A DNA stretch of 28,979 nt, from positions 1 to 28,979 of the IMG/VR virus record IMGVR_UViG_3300008107_000276; one strand, given 5' to 3'. Positions within the stretch are counted from its first letter, which is position 1, and each line of letters starts with the position of its first letter. Origin of the DNA: a virus. Positions 1 to 28,979 of the stretch are shown one piece after another. A program made the position numbers and the translations under genes. Under the pieces are notes generated by a model. That model did not search any database and had not been told where the DNA came from. It saw only the letters and a program-made list of their open reading frames with translations.

Positions 1-216
1 AATATTTTTTTCTTTGTGGATATTGTGCGCTAGTTCCTCAATTTTACTTTCTAATTTGTCAACTTTTTGTGCAACCTGGTCTATTTTTATAGTGTGTATA
101 TCCTCCAAGGATTGCACCCGCTTTTCTAAGTTATCAACTCTCTTGAATAAGTAACTGTAAGCAACTACTAAAGCGCTGCCAATAGTATTAAATAGGTATT
201 GTATATCAAAATTCAT
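1..216 (-). CDS. Membrane-anchored coiled-coil protein, C-terminus beyond window
   Basis: Open from an ATG at 216 to the window edge (72 residues visible, stop not seen). Residues 6-24 are hydrophobic (LFNTIGSALVVAYSYLF) and would span the membrane. From residue 26 on the protein is charged and heptad-like (VDNLEKRVQSLEDI, then KLESKIEELAHNI), so a coiled coil would project from the membrane. It follows the 3-TM protein by 7 nt, at the end of the structural block where lysis genes often sit. An accessory holin or spanin-like role is possible, but nothing seen here proves it. Confidence 0.6.
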   Translation of the reverse strand, partial: MNFDIQYLFNTIGSALVVAYSYLFKRVDNLEKRVQSLEDIHTIKIDQVAQKVDKLESKIEELAHNIHKEKNI

Positions 217-223
217 AGGGGTA

Positions 224-562
224 TTATTTGCGGAAAAAAACTTTAAAACCTACATAGTGAATATATAAAAATAATAATGCTGTTAATGTATAATCAATAA
301 AGCTATAATCCTTTAAAAAATAGGCAAGGAAAAATAGCAAGTAAGTAAGTAAAATTCTCAACCAATCAAACACGTGCCATGCGTTTATTACCGCTCCGAT
401 TTTCTTTTCTATCCAACTTGGATTAATGTATAGTTTGCGCCAACTTTCTCTATCCCAAAAATAACCTAGTGATTTAAGGTTGTTATAAAACATAATACGG
501 TCGGTAATGCCTTTACACGCTCCAATCGTAAATGAAATAATAAATAATAATGCCTCAATCAT
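224..562 (-). CDS. Small integral membrane protein (about 3 TM)
   Basis: 112 aa. Hydrophobic stretches lie at about residues 2-16, 66-82 and 87-105. Between the first two is a conserved-looking polar segment rich in aromatic residues (GYFWDRESWRKLYINPSWIE). The start overlaps the stop of the 39-aa basic protein as ATGA, so translation is probably coupled. Position after the fibre genes and beside another membrane protein suggests a lysis or envelope function such as a holin, but I do not recognise the family. The gene call is firm; the function is not. Confidence 0.6.
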   Translation of the reverse strand: MIEALLFIISFTIGACKGITDRIMFYNNLKSLGYFWDRESWRKLYINPSWIEKKIGAVINAWHVFDWLRILLTYLLFFLAYFLKDYSFIDYTLTALLFLYIHYVGFKVFFRK

Positions 563-4569: not shown

Positions 4570-6497
4570 TTTTCTGCTACTAAAACTGCGTTCCAAATAT
4601 GTCTACATGATGGCCTGTGATTTCCATTAGGCAATGTCAACCAACCGCCCCTAAAAGTCCAAACATCATAGCCTAATTCCGCACTAATATTGTTGATATC
4701 CTCACGGCTAAAATATTTATTTGACTTAACCAACGCTTCGCAAAATCCACGGGTTCTACCATCAGGCAAAATATCAGGGCCGCTTGCATCTGGTCTTTTA
4801 ACATACTCATAGACCGTGCGCAACTTTGCCAACTCTCTATTTGGTTGCAACTCGGTTAAGAGCAAACCACCCAACTCAGTTAATTTATAAGCCCCGCTTT
4901 CGCGATCTGTTACAATTAATTTTTTGCCCTTAAGTTTTTCTTCAGTTTTGGCTTCAATTTTTGGATTTTGCCCTTGGGCAATTTTTTTCAATATCCCTTT
5001 TTCGTACTCATTTACACCTTGCTCTTTTTGGATTTCATTAAATGAAATATGAAAGGTGTCCATATCAGCCATACTTAGGTGTTTAACCTGCACCGCATTT
5101 AACTTTTCAAACTTTTCTTTTAATGAACCGTATTTGCTAAAAACAGCAATTTCTTTTACATCATTAAATTTAAATTGCGCTGGCTGAGTTTCAGGTATTA
5201 TCCCTCCATCCTCTTTAGGAGGCAAGGCTACTAAACCACGAATCTCATTTGGTGTCATTGATTCAAGTACCTTATTCGCAACTAATGGGCTTAAAGAGTT
5301 AATTGCATCATTTGTAGCGTTTAAGTTAGTCTTAATATCAATAGCTTTAAATCCATACATTTCGCGTATCTCATCCTTAGTTAATACCTGAGACATTACG
5401 TTTTCACTCATTTGCATTTGCATAGGCACAAATGGCAATAATTCAAATCCAGTCGGCAAGCCTTTTAATGTACCTAATTCGTTTATTAAGTTTTCAAAAT
5501 GTAATACGCGTTCCTCTACATAGGTGTTTTTAAACAATTCAAACGCTTCTAATAACTCATTACGGCCTCCTAATTGGCCTTCTACCCTTACACCAAATAA
5601 CATCGGACTTGGAATCTTATGGGCAATAAATATTTCCTGTTCGGTATCTTTGCGTAACTGAGAAAACTGGTCTCCAAAATCACCCGCACTTAAATCGGTT
5701 ATTGTGGTTGCACGTTCCGTACCGTCATTAAATGCAAGCATAAATTTACCTGCATTTTCATCCGAAGTAAACTTGTCCTGTACGGCTCTTTCTATATCGT
5801 CCTGTTCTTCTGCGCTTGGTAATCCGTTGTTAAAGTTGATTATCTTATTAGCAAAAAACCCGTTTCTTAAATTGTTCAAATGGAAATTGCTCACCCTTGC
5901 ATCGGTTTCAATCGCTGCTAACCCTTGTGTGTATTCAGGCTGTGGGTATATGCCTATATTTGGACGGTAGCAGGTGTATAAGATAATACTTTCACTTTGA
6001 TACGAACCATCAAATACAGGATATTCTCTCACGGCCTTTTTAGGCTTGCCCGTTTTAGCCGTTTCCCATTCATCACTAATGGTCACCGTTTTGCAGTCTT
6101 CACTTAAACGAACCTTTGATATATCTACATGATAGTAAGAAGCTGGTTTATCTTTTAGAATATTAGGCACTACCAATATAGCATACCCACCAAACAACTC
6201 ATAATCTAATGCTAATTTCTTTAATAATACTTCGAGTGTATCATTTGGATTTGCTTTGTTTATAAACTTGTCAGTTTCTGCTGTTGGGTTAGTGTGAATT
6301 ACTCCACGCCCTACTACATAACTGGCTTTACCTGTTACAATAGCACCATGCTTTGCACTTTCGTTAAATAGCTTAATTAACTTTTGCGGATAGTCATTAA
6401 ACTTTCCCCAAAACACCCATTTCTGATTTCCCTTTTTTTCTTGAAAATCCTCTACCTTGGTTACGGCTAATTTTATTACTTTAATATTATTGCTCAT
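4566..6497 (-). CDS. Portal protein with extra C-terminal domain
   Basis: 643 aa. The N-terminal 400 residues follow the phage portal layout: a WGKFNDYPQKLIKLFNES segment, a clip-to-wing region with LFGGYAILVVPN, and the conserved motif around IPSPMLFGVRVEGQLGGRNE (about residues 300-320). Portals form the dodecameric ring at the capsid vertex through which DNA is packaged. Residues about 560-643 look like a separate module with RGFCEALV, EDINNISAELGYDVWTFRGG and a closing PSCRHIWNAVLV. A Cys/His-bearing tail of this kind also occurs on minor head proteins. The gene overlaps the 126-aa gene by 11 nt. Confidence 0.75.
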   Translation of the reverse strand: MSNNIKVIKLAVTKVEDFQEKKGNQKWVFWGKFNDYPQKLIKLFNESAKHGAIVTGKASYVVGRGVIHTNPTAETDKFINKANPNDTLEVLLKKLALDYELFGGYAILVVPNILKDKPASYYHVDISKVRLSEDCKTVTISDEWETAKTGKPKKAVREYPVFDGSYQSESIILYTCYRPNIGIYPQPEYTQGLAAIETDARVSNFHLNNLRNGFFANKIINFNNGLPSAEEQDDIERAVQDKFTSDENAGKFMLAFNDGTERATTITDLSAGDFGDQFSQLRKDTEQEIFIAHKIPSPMLFGVRVEGQLGGRNELLEAFELFKNTYVEERVLHFENLINELGTLKGLPTGFELLPFVPMQMQMSENVMSQVLTKDEIREMYGFKAIDIKTNLNATNDAINSLSPLVANKVLESMTPNEIRGLVALPPKEDGGIIPETQPAQFKFNDVKEIAVFSKYGSLKEKFEKLNAVQVKHLSMADMDTFHISFNEIQKEQGVNEYEKGILKKIAQGQNPKIEAKTEEKLKGKKLIVTDRESGAYKLTELGGLLLTELQPNRELAKLRTVYEYVKRPDASGPDILPDGRTRGFCEALVKSNKYFSREDINNISAELGYDVWTFRGGWLTLPNGNHRPSCRHIWNAVLVAEK

Positions 6498-6867
6498 TCG
6501 TATATACTTTATTCGTTTGTACTAAATTAGTGTAGTATGTTTCTGTGTATGGTTCAGCTATTACTTGTACTTTGCCATATTCAATCGGTTCACCAACTGG
6601 CACTAATCCGTTGCGCTCTTGATAAATTTTGTATTGATAAAATCCACTCACAAAATCAACCACCCCGTTATATAAGTCTTCGGTTGCGCTATCTAAAATA
6701 TAAAATACTTGATATTGTGCGCTTGTAGTGTAATTAGCAGTAAAGTATTTCTTTACAAGTGTAGTTGCATTTTGAACCTCGAATAAATATTGAGGCACGG
6801 TAACAGTTGTCTTTTCTGCAAGAGTTAAATATACCTCGTTAAGTTCGCCTTTGTTAATGCTAATCAT
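6487..6867 (-). CDS. Small virion-associated protein between tube and portal genes
   Basis: 126 aa from ATG 6865-6867 (MISINKGELNEVYLTLAEKT). An in-frame ATG at 6906 would put 13 hydrophobic residues in front but would lie in the terminator hairpin, so the inner start is preferred. The protein is beta-rich, with FLFEVQNATT-like strands and a central GFYQYKIYQERNG, a layout seen in small phage proteins next to head genes in Bacteroidota phages. A head-decoration or head-completion role is possible. It overlaps the portal start by 11 nt. Confidence 0.5.
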   Translation of the reverse strand: MISINKGELNEVYLTLAEKTTVTVPQYLFEVQNATTLVKKYFTANYTTSAQYQVFYILDSATEDLYNGVVDFVSGFYQYKIYQERNGLVPVGEPIEYGKVQVIAEPYTETYYTNLVQTNKVYTNEQ

Positions 6868-7499: not shown

Positions 7500-8456
7500 T
7501 TAAGCTACTGTGATTACTTGACGAACAATTTGTTCAGGGTAGTAAACTTGAACACCCATCATACCCTCTAATGCGAAACGCACTTCGCGGTTATCTTGTG
7601 AATACCACATATCCATCAAGGTTGATTCAAATGGGTTGTCTACACCGATTACAAAGTTTGAAGCCTGACCAGCCCAGATTCTGTTTGAGTTAGTCAATCC
7701 GTTTAACGCTACAACTTTAACGTTAGTGCCTGGGTGTACGATTTCAAAACTTGGAGTTCCACCTTCAACCGCTGCATTTCCATTGTAGTGGAATAAGTTT
7801 AATTGACGTAATCTTGTCAAGTATTCGCGGAAACGAGGCATTGAGATGTAAACTTGGGTATCTTCTTTATCGATTACCTCAGCTGGGATAGCGTTAATAA
7901 CACCATCGATAATATCAAATGAAGTTGAAATTGACCATGCAGAAGTAGCAGGATTGAAAGAGTTAGCCGAAGTAGCTACGTCTAAAATCTTGTTAAATCC
8001 GTCAAACTTATTCAAGTTCGCATCACCTGAACCTGTATCACCTTGCCAAATTGCGCGCTCGATAATTTCACTAAAACGACCTACAACACCATCCATAAAT
8101 ACTGATTCTAATTCAGTTGGCATTGATTGGTTAGCCTGTTGACCAACTGGTAAATAAGCGCGTGTAAAGTAAGCCTCAAGGTCTTTAATACAAAACGGCA
8201 TATTGATTTTGTACGAACCAGGGGTTAAAGTACGTTGTGTTAACGCTACGCTGTTAGCGGTAGTAGTAGTCCAACCACATCCACCTGCTTGTAGTGAAAG
8301 ATTAACAGCGGCACGGTTTAAGGTTGTTGCAACTTTATATCCTTGCTCAACTGTGAAAGTACGGATTGATTTCGAAGTGAAAAATGCGCGCAACTTTAAA
8401 GCGGTAGCATTTTGTTCTGTGTAGGCTGTAAGCCCTGCTAAATTAAAACTTGACAT
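7500..8456 (-). CDS. Major capsid protein
   Basis: 318 aa, the usual size for an HK97-fold capsid subunit without a long delta domain. Its neighbours (protease and scaffold upstream) are those of a capsid gene. The sequence shows an N-terminal arm (1-60), a long helical spine region with LESVFMDGVVGRFSEIIERA (about 112-135), an alpha/beta A-domain with VYISMPRFREYLTRLR, and a C-terminal strand set ending VRFALEGMMGVQVYYPEQIV. It would self-assemble into the icosahedral shell. Context is the strongest evidence. Confidence 0.75.
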   Translation of the reverse strand: MSSFNLAGLTAYTEQNATALKLRAFFTSKSIRTFTVEQGYKVATTLNRAAVNLSLQAGGCGWTTTTANSVALTQRTLTPGSYKINMPFCIKDLEAYFTRAYLPVGQQANQSMPTELESVFMDGVVGRFSEIIERAIWQGDTGSGDANLNKFDGFNKILDVATSANSFNPATSAWSISTSFDIIDGVINAIPAEVIDKEDTQVYISMPRFREYLTRLRQLNLFHYNGNAAVEGGTPSFEIVHPGTNVKVVALNGLTNSNRIWAGQASNFVIGVDNPFESTLMDMWYSQDNREVRFALEGMMGVQVYYPEQIVRQVITVA

Positions 8457-25981: not shown

Positions 25982-26119
25982 ATGTACACTTGTGATAAAT
26001 GCGGCAAAGAATTTTCAATCCCTGTTATGGTTGATACAGGTGGAGAATACGGGAACACTCCATATACTGAACCTGCAAGCCCATGCTGTGAGGATAATTT
26101 TGAGGAAGTGGAAAGCTAA
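25982..26119 (+). CDS. 45-aa zinc-ribbon-like protein
   Basis: ATG 25982-25984, TAA 26117-26119. Cys pairs at MYTCDKCGKEF (4, 7) and PASPCCEDNF (35, 36) can form one zinc site. The tail is acidic (EDNFEEVES). It begins 3 nt after the HTH stop, so it belongs to the early operon, and its stop codon lies in the first attC-like core (AGCTAAC). That makes it the last phage-type gene or the first cassette gene. Confidence 0.6.
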   Translation: MYTCDKCGKEFSIPVMVDTGGEYGNTPYTEPASPCCEDNFEEVES

Positions 26120-26245
26120 CGGTTTGCGGCTTGTAGCTGAAAGGGTTTTAGAAGCACACAGTTTCGACCTTCCACTACTGCCGATTAGAACCACAAATGA
26201 CGAATGTAGCACGTCAGCCCTTTTTGCTACAAACCGCTGTTACCT
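26114..26245 (+). other. attC-like site 1 (132 nt)
   Basis: R'' AGCTAAC (26114-26120) pairs with R' GTTACCT (26239-26245) through TAAC/GTTA. Unpaired spacers are GGTTT (5 nt) and T (1 nt). Then GCGG pairs with CCGC, a C/A mismatch follows, and a further stem of about 16 bp (TTGTAGC, then AAAGGG) is complete. The loop holds an ATG at 26197. Confidence 0.7.
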
Positions 26246-26265
26246 GCTGGGCGGTTTATCAGTAG
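26197..26265 (+). CDS. Possible 22-codon leader ORF inside attC-like site 1
   Basis: The ATG follows the A-rich ACCACAA in the loop. The frame (MTNVARQPFLLQTAVTCWAV) crosses the core GTT as Ala-Val and stops at TAG (26263-26265), 20 nt before the DUF3307 start. It may aid translation of the next gene by coupling. No independent support. Confidence 0.25.
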   Translation: MTNVARQPFLLQTAVTCWAVYQ

Positions 26266-26285
26266 GAACTTAAATTAAAAAATAA

Positions 26286-26660
26286 ATGCAAACACAAATT
26301 TTAATCGGATTATTTATCTGCCATTTTTTAGCAGATTACACACATTTATCAACTGCTTGGATGCTTAATGCAAAGCGACTTGGAAAGCCATTATTTCCAA
26401 TATTCATTCACGCTGCGATGCACACAATGTTAATGTCGCTTGTTTTAGGGTTGTTTATTGGCTTTACAAATGATTGGGCTTACTTGGTAATATTCCAATG
26501 GGTAACACACTTTTTAATTGATACTTGGAAAGGTAAAATGAATGTGTGGTTTCCTGCACTACAATCACCTGCTAATAAATGGCATTGGATTGTGTATGGA
26601 TTTGACCAATTATTACACGCTTTGGTTATTATCGGAATGTCATTATATGCAGTATCTTAG
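26286..26660 (+). CDS. DUF3307 membrane protein (cassette gene)
   Basis: 124 aa, about four hydrophobic segments (2-16, 38-58, 62-80, 106-123). Conserved polar residues fit the DUF3307 pattern: HFLADY (His13, Asp17), FIHAAMHT (His42, His46), THFLIDTWKGK (His75, Asp79) and FDQLLHALV (Asp107, His111). The family is common in phages and bacteria and its function is unknown; the buried His/Asp may bind metal. The ATG follows AAATTAAAAAATAA, a good leader for this group. The stop is 6 nt before attC-like site 2. Confidence 0.7.
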   Translation: MQTQILIGLFICHFLADYTHLSTAWMLNAKRLGKPLFPIFIHAAMHTMLMSLVLGLFIGFTNDWAYLVIFQWVTHFLIDTWKGKMNVWFPALQSPANKWHWIVYGFDQLLHALVIIGMSLYAVS

Positions 26661-26666
26661 CCTTGC

Positions 26667-26720
26667 AGGTAACGGACGAGTATTTGCGCTCGTTTTAATG
26701 ACGCAAATACTGTGTTATAT
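26667..26720 (+). other. attC-like site 2 (54 nt)
   Basis: R'' AGGTAAC (26667-26673) and R' GTTATAT (26714-26720). Spacers GGACGA and TGT are unpaired. GTATTTGCG (26680-26688) pairs perfectly with CGCAAATAC (26702-26710). The loop is CTCGTTTTAATGA, nearly the same as in site 3. Confidence 0.7.
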
Positions 26721-26748
26721 GATGTAAAAAATTTGTTCTTTTGTATTT

Positions 26749-26873
26749 GGGGAGCTGGCGGAATTGGAATACGGCAGTAGATTGGCGGAAGCACCACGAA
26801 GTCGCCCGTAAGCAGAAATGCTGGTATAAAACCTTAGCTCTGTGGTTTGCAGGTTCGAATCCTGCGCTCCCTA
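26749..26873 (+). tRNA. tRNA-like element, tRNA-Leu-like ends with enlarged centre
   Basis: Acceptor stem GGGGAGC pairs with GCTCCCT (one G-U), followed by A and CAAA rather than CCA. The T arm is perfect: GCAGG-TTCGAAT-CCTGC (26849-26865). The 5' part TGGCGGAATTGG is like the D arm of tRNA-Leu, but its 3' side (CGGC) leaves a mismatch. The span is 125 nt, against 80-95 for class II tRNAs, and the middle (26775-26845) has no clear anticodon arm; it can form GGCG/CGCC and AAACC/GGTTT stems. It is either a tRNA with an inserted segment, a degenerate tRNA, or a tRNA mimic. It is the only content of its cassette. Confidence 0.55.
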
Positions 26874-26888
26874 CAAATTTTTTATTTC

Positions 26889-26942
26889 ATATAACGGCTG
26901 CGTATAGGCGGTCGTTTTAATGCCGCCTATACGTTGTTATAA
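26889..26942 (+). other. attC-like site 3 (54 nt)
   Basis: R'' ATATAAC (26889-26895), R' GTTATAA (26936-26942). Unpaired spacers GGCTG and TT. CGTATAGGCGG (26901-26911) pairs over 11 bp with 26923-26933. The loop is TCGTTTTAATG. It has the cleanest attC layout in the array. Confidence 0.75.
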
Positions 26943-26979
26943 GTTGGCTGCGGATTATTAACGAAAAACTTAAATTGAA

Positions 26980-27624
26980 ATGAAAATATTAATAGCTTGT
27001 GAGGAGAGCCAAGAAGTTTGCAGAGCTTTCCGAGAATTAGGATTTGAGGCTTATAGTTGTGACCTACAAGAATGTAGCGGAGGACATCCCGAATGGCATA
27101 TTGTAGGAGATGCAATAAAAGAGGCTTATAGTGGTAAATATGATATGATGATTGCACACCCACCTTGCACTTATATGAGTAAGGCAGGAGCAAGATGGAT
27201 GTATCCAACGGCAGGTAATTTGTGCCAAGATAGATATGCAAAAGCAATTGAAGCGAAGGCTATGTTTTTGGAACTACTTAATGCACCGATTGAATTTATT
27301 GCAGTTGAAAACCCGACACCATTAAAAGTAGTTGAATTGCCAAAACATAGCCAAGCGATACAGCCATACGAATATGGACACGAATACAGTAAACGAACTT
27401 TATTATGGTTGAAAAATTTGCCACTATTAAAGCCGACTGATATTCAAAGCAACTATAAGCCGTATTTACCGAGCAATACTGGAGGGAAGAAACGAGGACA
27501 GAAATACCATTCTGTAAGCATCACTCAAAAAGAAAGCTCAAAAACTTTTAGTGGGGTGGCAAAAGCTATGGCTGAACAATGGGGAACTTTCATTCGGAGC
27601 AGGAACGTAGCAGCTTGCTTATAA
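26980..27624 (+). CDS. C5-cytosine methyltransferase-like protein (cassette gene)
   Basis: 214 aa. MKILIACEESQEVCRAFREL is a Rossmann SAM-binding start, YSCDLQEC (about 25-32) has the ribose-binding Asp, MIAHPPCTYMSKAG (58-70) carries the Pro-Cys catalytic motif IV and AVENP (108-112) the motif VI Glu. QPYEYGHEYSKRTLLWLKNL is typical of the short phage-associated branch of this superfamily. There is no clear target-recognition domain (DNA C5 methylases are usually over 300 aa), so the substrate is uncertain. It starts 34 nt after site 3, and its stop overlaps site 4. No partner nuclease is next to it. Confidence 0.7.
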   Translation: MKILIACEESQEVCRAFRELGFEAYSCDLQECSGGHPEWHIVGDAIKEAYSGKYDMMIAHPPCTYMSKAGARWMYPTAGNLCQDRYAKAIEAKAMFLELLNAPIEFIAVENPTPLKVVELPKHSQAIQPYEYGHEYSKRTLLWLKNLPLLKPTDIQSNYKPYLPSNTGGKKRGQKYHSVSITQKESSKTFSGVAKAMAEQWGTFIRSRNVAACL

Positions 27625-27714
27625 TGAACAAGTGTTTAAACAGTGCCCGACTTATAGCACAAAACGAACTACAAAGAACTGAACTAAGGGCATTGTTTAA
27701 ACATAGTGTTATGT
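27623..27714 (+). other. attC-like site 4 (92 nt)
   Basis: R'' AATGAAC (27623-27629) is degenerate (GAAC instead of TAAC); R' GTTATGT is at 27708-27714. GTTTAAACAGTGCCC (27634-27648) pairs with GGGCATTGTTTAAAC (27688-27702), 15 positions with one G-U. The loop of 39 nt has no ATG. This is the weakest core but a strong stem. Confidence 0.6.
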
Positions 27715-27823
27715 GGCGTGAGCGTTAGGCGGTGCGGTGGTAGCGAACCGTTGCCGCACGAAGCGTGGACAATGCGAGGAACAGCTTCCATGCCCGAAGC
27801 ATTATTGAGGGTGCGGCAATGGC
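27715..27823 (+). ncRNA. GC-rich non-coding cassette body with alternative stems
   Basis: No convincing gene is seen, and GC is clearly higher than in neighbours. GTGCGG (27732-27737) can pair with CCGCAC (27754-27759), or TTGCCGCAC (27751-27759) can pair perfectly with GTGCGGCAA (27811-27819). In the second fold AATGC/GCATT and ATGC/GCAT stems nest inside. Two exclusive folds suggest a structured RNA, or the remains of an older recombination site; GTTAGGC at 27725-27731 equals a consensus core but has no partner. Confidence 0.3.
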
Positions 27824-27957
27824 ACATAACGTGATGCAGCTTGGCGACAGGCTGCGATTTTGGAACACGAATTTTCACTTAACAACAAAACAAAACATGG
27901 AACACGAAACTAAATTATCAGACTACACTCGCAGCTTGCGCCAAACTGCTGTTATGC
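27824..27957 (+). other. attC-like site 5 (134 nt)
   Basis: R'' ACATAAC (27824-27830), R' GTTATGC (27951-27957). Spacers GTGAT and T. GCAG pairs with CTGC, a C/A mismatch follows, then TTGGCG pairs with CGCCAA, one bulged A, and CAGGCTGCGA pairs with TCGCAGCTTG (one G-U). The loop contains an A-rich leader and the start codon of the next gene (27897). Confidence 0.7.
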
Positions 27958-28157
27958 CTCGTTTTTTTATCGGGCAGGAAGTCAAAACAGAACACGGTAT
28001 TGGTATTATAGTAGCCATTGAAATGCCACACAACGGACTTTATTTACAGCCCGAAAGAGCCGAAGCGGTTGTTTGGTATAGCACAGAAAGAGCATTTGAA
28101 GAAGGCATCAAATGGGTTAGCTTCACGTATAAATTGTCGGAATTGTCGGCTGTTTAA
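27897..28157 (+). CDS. 86-aa unknown protein whose start lies in an attC-like loop
   Basis: Start at ATG 27897, preceded by AACAACAAAACAAAAC, an excellent A-rich leader. The first 18 codons run through the 3' arm of site 5, GTT of the core encodes Val19 and the ATG inside GTTATG is codon 20. The cassette-borne part is MPRFFIGQEVKTEHGIGIIV, then MPHNGLYLQPERAEAVVWYS and WVSFTYKLSEL. The repeated short strands resemble an SH3-like barrel, but no family is named. An alternative start is the core ATG at 27954 (67 aa). Confidence 0.6.
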   Translation: MEHETKLSDYTRSLRQTAVMPRFFIGQEVKTEHGIGIIVAIEMPHNGLYLQPERAEAVVWYSTERAFEEGIKWVSFTYKLSELSAV

Positions 28158-28163
28158 AATGGG

Positions 28164-28296
28164 GCATAATGTTCCGCAGCCTTGCTTAGTGCGGGCTTAA
28201 CAAGTAAAATTTATATTATGAAAACAGAAGAATATTTTAACGAAGGAACTCCTTTTGAAAGCATGAAACCCGCATTGAGCAAGGGTGCTGTTATGC
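28164..28296 (+). other. attC-like site 6 (133 nt)
   Basis: R'' GCATAAT (28164-28170, last base C in most sites), R' GTTATGC (28290-28296). Spacers GTTCC and T. The stem between 28176-28198 and 28266-28288 has 23 positions (GCAGCCTTGCTTAGTGCGGG on the left), with two mismatches and two G-U pairs. The loop has an ATG at 28218. Confidence 0.75.
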
Positions 28297-28511
28297 GATG
28301 CCCTTCTAAACTCATTCTTGAAAACCGAACTGATTTGCCAATGGTAGATTTTTTAAGGTTAGCTCAAGAAGTGGTTTCAATGGGTCGCATTTCAAACGAT
28401 GATAAGCAATATTGCTACTTAACTGCATTTACTATTGACGGTAAAGAATACCACATTGTAAGCGACCTTAACGAAAAGTCGGATAAGCTAACCTTTTACA
28501 AGCGTCCATAG
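28218..28511 (+). CDS. 97-aa unknown protein whose start lies in an attC-like loop
   Basis: ATG 28218 is preceded by AAGTAAAATTTATATT. The first 24 codons (MKTEEYFNEGTPFESMKPAL, then SKGA) lie in site 6. GTT of the core is Val25, followed by Met26. The cassette part begins MRCPSKLILENRTDLPMVDF and ends in a beta hairpin (AFTIDGKEYHIVSDL). No family recognised. As in the previous cassette, Ala-Val-Met marks the recombination core. Confidence 0.6.
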   Translation: MKTEEYFNEGTPFESMKPALSKGAVMRCPSKLILENRTDLPMVDFLRLAQEVVSMGRISNDDKQYCYLTAFTIDGKEYHIVSDLNEKSDKLTFYKRP

Positions 28512-28517
28512 GGTATC

Positions 28518-28642
28518 GCATAACGTTTTCGGGCTTTGCGAAGTGGCTGAACCCGAAGTTCAATAGAATTACTAAACTTAAAAATTAAAAACGAATGTTG
28601 ATAGAAGAACTAAACAGCCATTTTGCCAAACCCGTGTTATGC
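28518..28642 (+). other. attC-like site 7 (125 nt)
   Basis: R'' GCATAAC (28518-28524), R' GTTATGC (28636-28642). Spacers GTTTT and T. CGGG pairs with CCCG, a C/A mismatch follows, then TT/AA, one mismatch, and GCGAAGTGGCTG pairs with CAGCCATTTTGC (two G-U). The loop carries an A-rich leader and an ATG at 28595. Confidence 0.7.
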
Positions 28643-28669
28643 CTAGTGCTTTTGATTATTAAACTTTAA
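28595..28669 (+). CDS. Possible 24-codon leader ORF in attC-like site 7
   Basis: It follows TTAAAAATTAAAAACGA. It reads through the stem and core in a different frame from the other sites (core read as GTG-TTA-TGC) and stops at 28667-28669, 11 nt before the next cassette gene. It could act in translational coupling or simply be out of frame after cassette exchange. Confidence 0.3.
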   Translation: MLIEELNSHFAKPVLCLVLLIIKL

Positions 28670-28680
28670 ATTAAATAAAA

Positions 28681-28896
28681 ATGGATATTACAGAAGAAAT
28701 GATTGAAGATTGTGTTTCAGATTTGTCAATCAACGGCAAATACAACAAACTTTACCAAATGCTTATTAATGAGGTTGAAAACCAAATTTCAGATAAGCGT
28801 CTAAATTCAATGGTAGATACATTGAACTATGTCGGATTGGATTGTCGTAAGATGTCAAAACTTGAAATTTTGTTTGAATACTCGAAGCTCATTTAG
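28681..28896 (+). CDS. 71-aa unknown helical protein (cassette gene)
   Basis: ATG 28681 after TTAAATTAAATAAAA, a good leader. The product is helical and acidic (MDITEEMIEDCVSDLSINGK, KYNKLYQMLINEVENQ, LNSMVDTLNYVGLDCRKMS). No membrane segment or known motif. It lies entirely between attC-like sites 7 and 8, a one-gene cassette. Confidence 0.55.
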   Translation: MDITEEMIEDCVSDLSINGKYNKLYQMLINEVENQISDKRLNSMVDTLNYVGLDCRKMSKLEILFEYSKLI

Positions 28897-28902
28897 CATT
28901 GG

Positions 28903-28979
28903 GCATAACTACTTTATATGTGCAACTTAAAGGTAACACTTCAATGATAACAAGGCTTAACGATATACCAACAGAGCAA
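28903..28979 (+). other. attC-like site 8, left half (cut by window end)
   Basis: R'' GCATAAC (28903-28909), then a 5-nt spacer TACTT and the start of the left arm TATATGTGCAAC. An ATG (28944) with an open frame to the window end lies where the loop should be, as in sites 5-7. The right arm and R' would be outside the window. Confidence 0.5.

Follow-up and report, generated by a model that had tools for sequence, protein, structure and literature searches.

A probable phage-borne integron cassette array of a type found in Bacteroidota

A 28,979-base linear virus record from IMG/VR (IMGVR_UViG_3300008107_000276, analysed over its whole length and referred to below as the window) carries at positions 26117-28928 what is probably a phage-borne integron cassette array, comprising seven cassettes and an attI-like site at the right end. 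Each cassette pairs a folded attC-like site with a single gene or RNA. The array probably belongs to an integron type that is widespread in Bacteroidota and whose recombinase is related to IntI and XerA and lacks the IntI-specific insertion. We assign a probability of roughly 0.78 to the whole explanation jointly, that is, the array, the Bacteroidota integron type and a host recombinase acting in trans.

Seven sites were located within 26117-28639, all on the plus strand, and the stem scorer and two covariance models found none elsewhere in the window. Each is a palindrome with a TAAC (or TAAT)...GTTA core and a long imperfect stem, in which the unpaired spacer measures about 5 nt on the left side and about 1 nt on the right side. 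This agrees with an earlier reading made from the sequence only, which had described AAC...GTT cores, unequal spacers and stems differing from site to site. The second covariance model (R2), trained only on 60 bacterial chromosomal sites adjoining recombinase genes, recovered all seven with E values of 1e-21 to 0.012; the next match in the window had an E value of 0.35. The first stem scorer, which used a loose core, gave many chance matches below about 14, and the covariance models took its place. Three strong sites scored 18.0-20.5 with the stem scorer, against a maximum of 14.8 over 40 dinucleotide shuffles of the array. The sites, with scores from the first (R1) and second models, are as follows.

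Site 1: 26117-26242, plus strand; R1 81.5 bits; R2 88 bits, E 1e-21
Site 2: 26670-26717, plus strand; short type with TCGTTTTAATG loop; R1 30.9 bits; R2 20.9 bits, E 0.0014
Site 3: 26892-26939, plus strand; short type with TCGTTTTAATG loop; R2 25.3 bits, E 9e-5
Site 4: 27622-27711, plus strand; AAT core variant; R1 31.3 bits; R2 17.4 bits, E 0.012
Site 5: 27827-27954, plus strand; R2 69.3 bits, E 1e-16
Site 6: 28167-28293, plus strand; AAT core; R2 55.4 bits, E 7e-13
Site 7: 28521-28639, plus strand; R2 85.4 bits, E 6e-21

The folded structure of the sites was evaluated from base pairing and covariation. In the bacterial set, 95% of the cells in stem columns were paired, compared with 67% in shuffles and 32-52% when the pairing was slid. 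Because sites entered these sets through their pairing or a model match, the share of paired cells is inflated, and comparison with slid pairings is more reliable. Stem-column covariation was 0.68 versus at most 0.13 for slid pairings, and the paired columns covary in the phage site set too. A C/A mismatch four pairs inside the spacer, already remarked on at some window sites, was confirmed and is frequent (29 of 54 aligned phage sites). These results support the earlier proposal of integron-type, structure-defined recombination sites. Site 4 is atypical, with its AAT core and a perfect GTTTAAAC palindrome, and site 7 is about 91% identical to one that adjoins a DNA methyltransferase gene in Muminvirus phages. 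The short subtype with the TCGTTTTAATG loop was also seen in Polaribacter phage P12002L, in L107 (2027-2057, minus strand) and in L009, L010, L018, L020 and L031.

The cassette units are delimited by inverted repeats of 8-10 bp. In all seven window cassettes (two with AAT for AAC), the sequence just right of a site is the reverse complement of that just left of the next site, for example GTTATGCGAT and ATCGCATAAC. Among 73 distinct neighbouring pairs, pairing beyond TAAC/GTTA from site n to site n+1 extended for a mean of 3.85 bp, compared with 0.95 within a site and 0.83 from n to n+2; the same-site, previous and next-but-one controls together spanned 0.83-0.95. Complementary ends are the pattern of integron cassettes, which on excision become circles with a single site made from both ends. 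The units had been described as ending in a palindrome; the mobile unit instead starts with it, and in sister phages the site moves with its downstream gene. The units, with their open reading frames (ORFs), and the attI-like site are listed below.

Cassette 1: 26120-26672, plus strand; site 1 and DUF3307 gene (ORF 26286-26660); ends GTTACCTGC/GCAGGTAAC
Cassette 2: 26673-26894, plus strand; site 2 and tRNA-like RNA (about 26748-26873); ends GTTATATGA/TCATATAAC
Cassette 3: 26895-27624, plus strand; site 3 and C5-methylase-like gene (ORF 26980-27624); GTTATAAG...CTTATAA unit
Cassette 4: 27625-27829, plus strand; site 4 and about 115 nt up to site 5, no fitting ORF; ends GTTATGTG/CACATAAC
Cassette 5: 27830-28169, plus strand; site 5 and ORF 27897-28157, start codon inside the site
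Cassette 6: 28170-28523, plus strand; site 6 and ORF 28218-28511, start inside the site; 10-bp ends GTTATGCGAT/ATCGCATAAC
Cassette 7: 28524-28908, plus strand; site 7 and ORF 28681-28896; ends GTTATGCC/GGCATAAC
attI-like site: 28906-28928, minus strand; insertion end of the array, weight-matrix match without hairpin

The DUF3307, methylase and tRNA-like units are all found again in unrelated phage contigs, where the homology stops at the core. The DUF3307 cassette gene is 92% identical in other phage contigs, and its homology stops exactly at TAAC. Cassette 2 recurs in phage contig L259 with identical ends and different neighbours, and the sequence of its tRNA-like RNA is conserved between these two unrelated contigs. 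The methylase unit is 93-95% identical in L018, L019, L021, L022 and L030, yet lies there between different sites.

Blastn searches led to Flavobacterium phages of the Muminvirus group, and the window terminase is about 41% identical to a Flavobacterium phage terminase. Small early-type genes precede the array in the window and run in the same direction. Twelve Muminvirus-type species representatives, all complete genomes of virulent isolates, carry 10-15 sites at the scorer threshold (9-16 across thresholds). Homologous methyltransferase-rich arrays are present in Muminvirus, Lillamyvirus and Hattifnattvirus Flavobacterium phages, and sister phages differ by whole cassettes. The array thus belongs to the phage, and an origin from a host genome was rejected, since homologous arrays stand in complete virulent phage genomes.

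The position of the crossover was determined from homology breakpoints within the arrays of the 12 genomes. Of 123 distinct breakpoints, 105 fell at the TAAC core on the 5-nt side (80) or at the TAAC of the attI-like end (25), whereas left-core windows make up about 4% of the array; the others lay in stems (8), at the other core (4) or in cassettes (6). The eight breakpoints inside stems, together with swaps at both cores in distant contigs, would suit exchange by a phage annealing recombinase through homology or microhomology at motifs such as TAACGTT and AAACCGCTGTTA, the hairpins being mere joints or terminators. We regard such exchange as improbable, as it leaves unexplained the matching inverted repeats of the cassette ends, the base-pair covariation, the attI-like ends and the adjacency of bacterial recombinase genes.

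The attI-like site was identified with a position weight matrix derived from seven attI sequences of Bacteroidota integrons. The match at 28906-28928 scored 23.6 bits, whereas the next in the window scored 11.4 and the maximum of 200 shuffled windows was 19.9. The sequence-only reading had counted eight attC-like sites with neither an integrase nor an attI. Seven of these are folded sites, and the eighth, near 28906, forms no hairpin and resembles attI instead; the window does lack an integrase. Similar matches occur beyond the last site in L013 and L007. In addition, the 219-kb phage contig L006 has attI-like sequences (TAACTCGTTTATTTGTCC...) at about 4869-4900 and at 5120-5142, 5953-5975, 6386-6408, 6718-6740 and 7965-7987, each closing one small cassette, so that several attI may be present in a single large phage.

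When genomes were scanned with the methylase, one such cassette was found in Hymenobacter lapidiphilus next to a gene for a 361-amino-acid tyrosine recombinase. Among 158 sampled Bacteroidota genomes, sites (E ≤ 1e-5) were found in 65, a close relative of the recombinase in 56 and both in 44. Sites were therefore present in 44 of the 56 genomes with the recombinase versus 21 of the 102 without it (p = 1e-12). Moreover, a site lies no more than 12 kb from 20 of the recombinase genes, and 17 of these share one layout. In L235, L236 and L237, the recombinase gene is followed by attI (e.g. TATAAACGAG/TTAGC) and then by cassettes with forward genes, each with its site at the gene 3' end. In a control phylum, only one of 120 genomes matched, namely the genome whose contig had seeded the search. 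An array site and the phage methylase were observed on L111, a 4.8-kb contig of a Candidatus Izimaplasma metagenome-assembled genome; its phylum is otherwise without sites, and L111 probably represents a phage contig that was binned wrongly.

Hairpins with a short conserved foot, and single sites in bacteria, also recall repetitive extragenic palindromic (REP) or bacterial interspersed mosaic element (BIME)-like sequences and hairpin elements of the insertion sequence type IS200/IS605. Such elements were expected to be scattered singly in both orientations; the sites instead share one strand within each of 21 loci (75 of 75 sites), are separated by gene-sized units and are linked to a tyrosine recombinase. 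An origin from elements of this kind is therefore very improbable, although no search aimed at Y1/HUH transposases was made.

The catalytic residues of the recombinase are visible in its alignment to the IntI structure 2A3V: R in GLRRSE, K in GKGKKDR, HxxR in HWLRHS, H in LGHKS and Y in IYTHV. This alignment covers residues 9-176 and 243-309, with 24 amino acids where VchIntIA has 66, and the IntI-specific insertion is missing from all 11 Bacteroidota recombinases tested. The same 11 proteins scored 178-221 bits with the IntI profile TIGR02249 (cut-off 265), always in two stretches, compared with 509 bits in one stretch for IntI1. Their best profile was NCBIfam NF040815 (archaeal XerA), matched in a single stretch at 193-248 bits (cut-off 220). 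Archaeal XerA is known for chromosome dimer resolution. In a tree in which a few array rows were frames read from stop to stop, the array-linked recombinases and IntI1 were split from XerC, XerD and the Bacteroidota Xer paralogues (100/100); the exact place of IntI1 is unsure because of its long branch. As these bacterial enzymes lack the insertion, an attribution to IntI in the strict sense was not borne out.

Classical IntI integrases of other bacteria, which have the extra domain, could nevertheless recombine the phage sites, the link to the XerA/IntI-like recombinase being secondary. Qi et al. (2023, PMC9892861) showed that IntI1 can recombine attC sites from virulent phages; of the two sites assayed from Polaribacter phage P12002L, which also carries a short-type site with the same TCGTTTTAATG loop, one was recombined. 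However, no IntI was found in the window or in related phage records, the bacterial recombinases stay below the IntI cut-off and lack the insertion, and R2 does not recover class 1 attC sites. We consider this alternative unlikely, if slightly less so than annealing exchange.

Returning to the Bacteroidota integron type, phage and bacterial cassettes differ in polarity. Relative to the orientation of the site, all 56 distinct phage cassettes in which an ORF is clear have their gene directed away from the site, compared with 1 of 18 bacterial cassettes. Phage cassettes thus carry the site at the gene 5' end, whereas 17 of 18 bacterial cassettes have the canonical order of gene then site; the classical arrangement of a gene followed by its attC is not seen in the phage cassettes. 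Furthermore, the ORF starts inside the site in 19 of the 56 phage cassettes, while neither end of the 18 bacterial ORFs enters a site. Given the opposite polarity and the ORF starts within sites, phage and bacterial cassettes look like two pools. The inverted polarity fits transcription of the array towards attI. In Hymenobacter lapidiphilus (L112, 7866-9811), a phage-type methylase cassette is inverted relative to the adjoining chromosomal integron recombinase and resembles a phage cassette that a bacterial integron has taken up.

A full recombinase was encoded in none of 29 related phage records, in which only a 99-amino-acid N-terminal piece was found. As no phage checked encodes the full enzyme, supply by the host in trans seems likeliest. 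We infer that the host recombinase would act on the phage DNA while it is single-stranded during replication. The folded strand would be cut at the G/TT core on the 5-nt-spacer side, and single cassettes would be released and then inserted at attI or at another site. In this manner, phages could swap anti-restriction and other small genes. The 99-amino-acid frame (L190/L254, G005:C1:8774-9022) has only the N-terminal SAM-like tyrosine-recombinase domain, lies on a contig with 11 sites and is possibly a decoy or inhibitor. A search of viral contigs for the recombinase gave four distant matches only; integrases of Polaribacter phage Leef_1 and Cellulophaga phage Ingeline are 35-39% identical to the integron recombinase.

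Several observations weigh against this explanation. Twelve of the 56 genomes with the recombinase have no detected sites, and 21 genomes have sites without the recombinase. The attI matrix comprises seven sequences only, with uneven leave-one-out scores (2.2-20.8), and the contig stops 51 bp past the attI-like site, leaving room for a phage-encoded recombinase beyond its end. Moreover, distant contigs carry one gene unit between different stems on both sides. This requires either exchange at the 1-nt-side core, which is not predicted by a model with a single strand and a single core, or homologous recombination inside the stems. The methylase unit (GTTATAAG...CTTATAAC) was observed between unrelated stems on both sides in L018-L022 and L030 relative to window 26892-27624.

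Phage-borne integrase-less attC clusters (CALINs) are already known from Polaribacter phage P12002L, TJE1 and PH101, as described by Qi et al. (2023, PMC9892861). These resemble the present array in their attC-type sites, DNA methyltransferase and unknown cassettes, virulent phage carriers and lack of a phage integrase. With seven sites in 2.5 kb and no nearby integrase, the window likewise has the at least two attC sites of a CALIN, from which the attI-like site is a departure. Compared with those clusters, the arrays studied here are linked to Bacteroidota integrons, end in an attI-like sequence, show consistently inverted gene polarity and number from seven sites in the window to about 15 in Muminvirus relatives; the main text of that paper makes no mention of Flavobacterium or Bacteroidota.

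Classical integrons share with the present type a recombinase gene, attI, tandem cassettes, folded sites with an unpaired spacer, G/TT crossover and inverted repeats at the cassette ends. They differ in their spacers (5 and 6 nt in the aadA1 attC versus about 5 and about 1 nt here), in the IntI insertion that the Bacteroidota recombinase lacks and in the polarity that is inverted in phage cassettes. The phage arrays themselves show folded sites, complementary cassette ends and gain or loss of whole cassettes at the G/TT core, as well as an attI at one end as judged by similarity; an integrase gene on the same element was not found in the window, which is a fragment.

IntegronFinder 2.0 reported one complete Bacteroidota integron, in Salinibacter ruber, and rare Bacteroidetes integrons have been described (PMC9024848). 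We think it fairly likely, with less confidence than for the explanation as a whole, that Bacteroidota own a widespread integron lineage without the IntI-specific domain, overlooked because integron finders key on that domain, and that virulent phages keep a separate inverted cassette pool with its own attI, exchanged via the host recombinase. The recombinase lineage, its attI and the inverted phage cassettes were not found in the open-licence PubMed Central literature searched. If this is true, integrons would be a common feature of Bacteroidota, and a folded-site recombinase without the insertion would directly test the need for it. It would also account for the way in which virulent Flavobacterium phages exchange DNA methyltransferases and other small genes that influence the restriction systems they survive. 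LMO9 phages that plate poorly on LMO6 lack a particular methyltransferase, and methyltransferase differences correlate with plating on LMO6 in a study that does not mention integrons or palindromes (PMC7077304); cassette exchange may explain these differences.

Two cargo products were considered further. The C5-methylase-like protein matched Pfam DNA_methylase only at E 0.063, below the cut-off, and its relatives in bacterial genomes lie mostly outside arrays, so that its presence alone does not indicate the system. For the tRNA-like RNA, ARAGORN and Rfam (gathering and permissive thresholds) returned nothing, as for the rest of the array, and the fold was not better than shuffles (z -0.83). 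The RNA, of about 126 nt, has acceptor-like and T arms and a long unusual middle, both in the window (26748-26873) and in L259 (about 145-270, minus strand).

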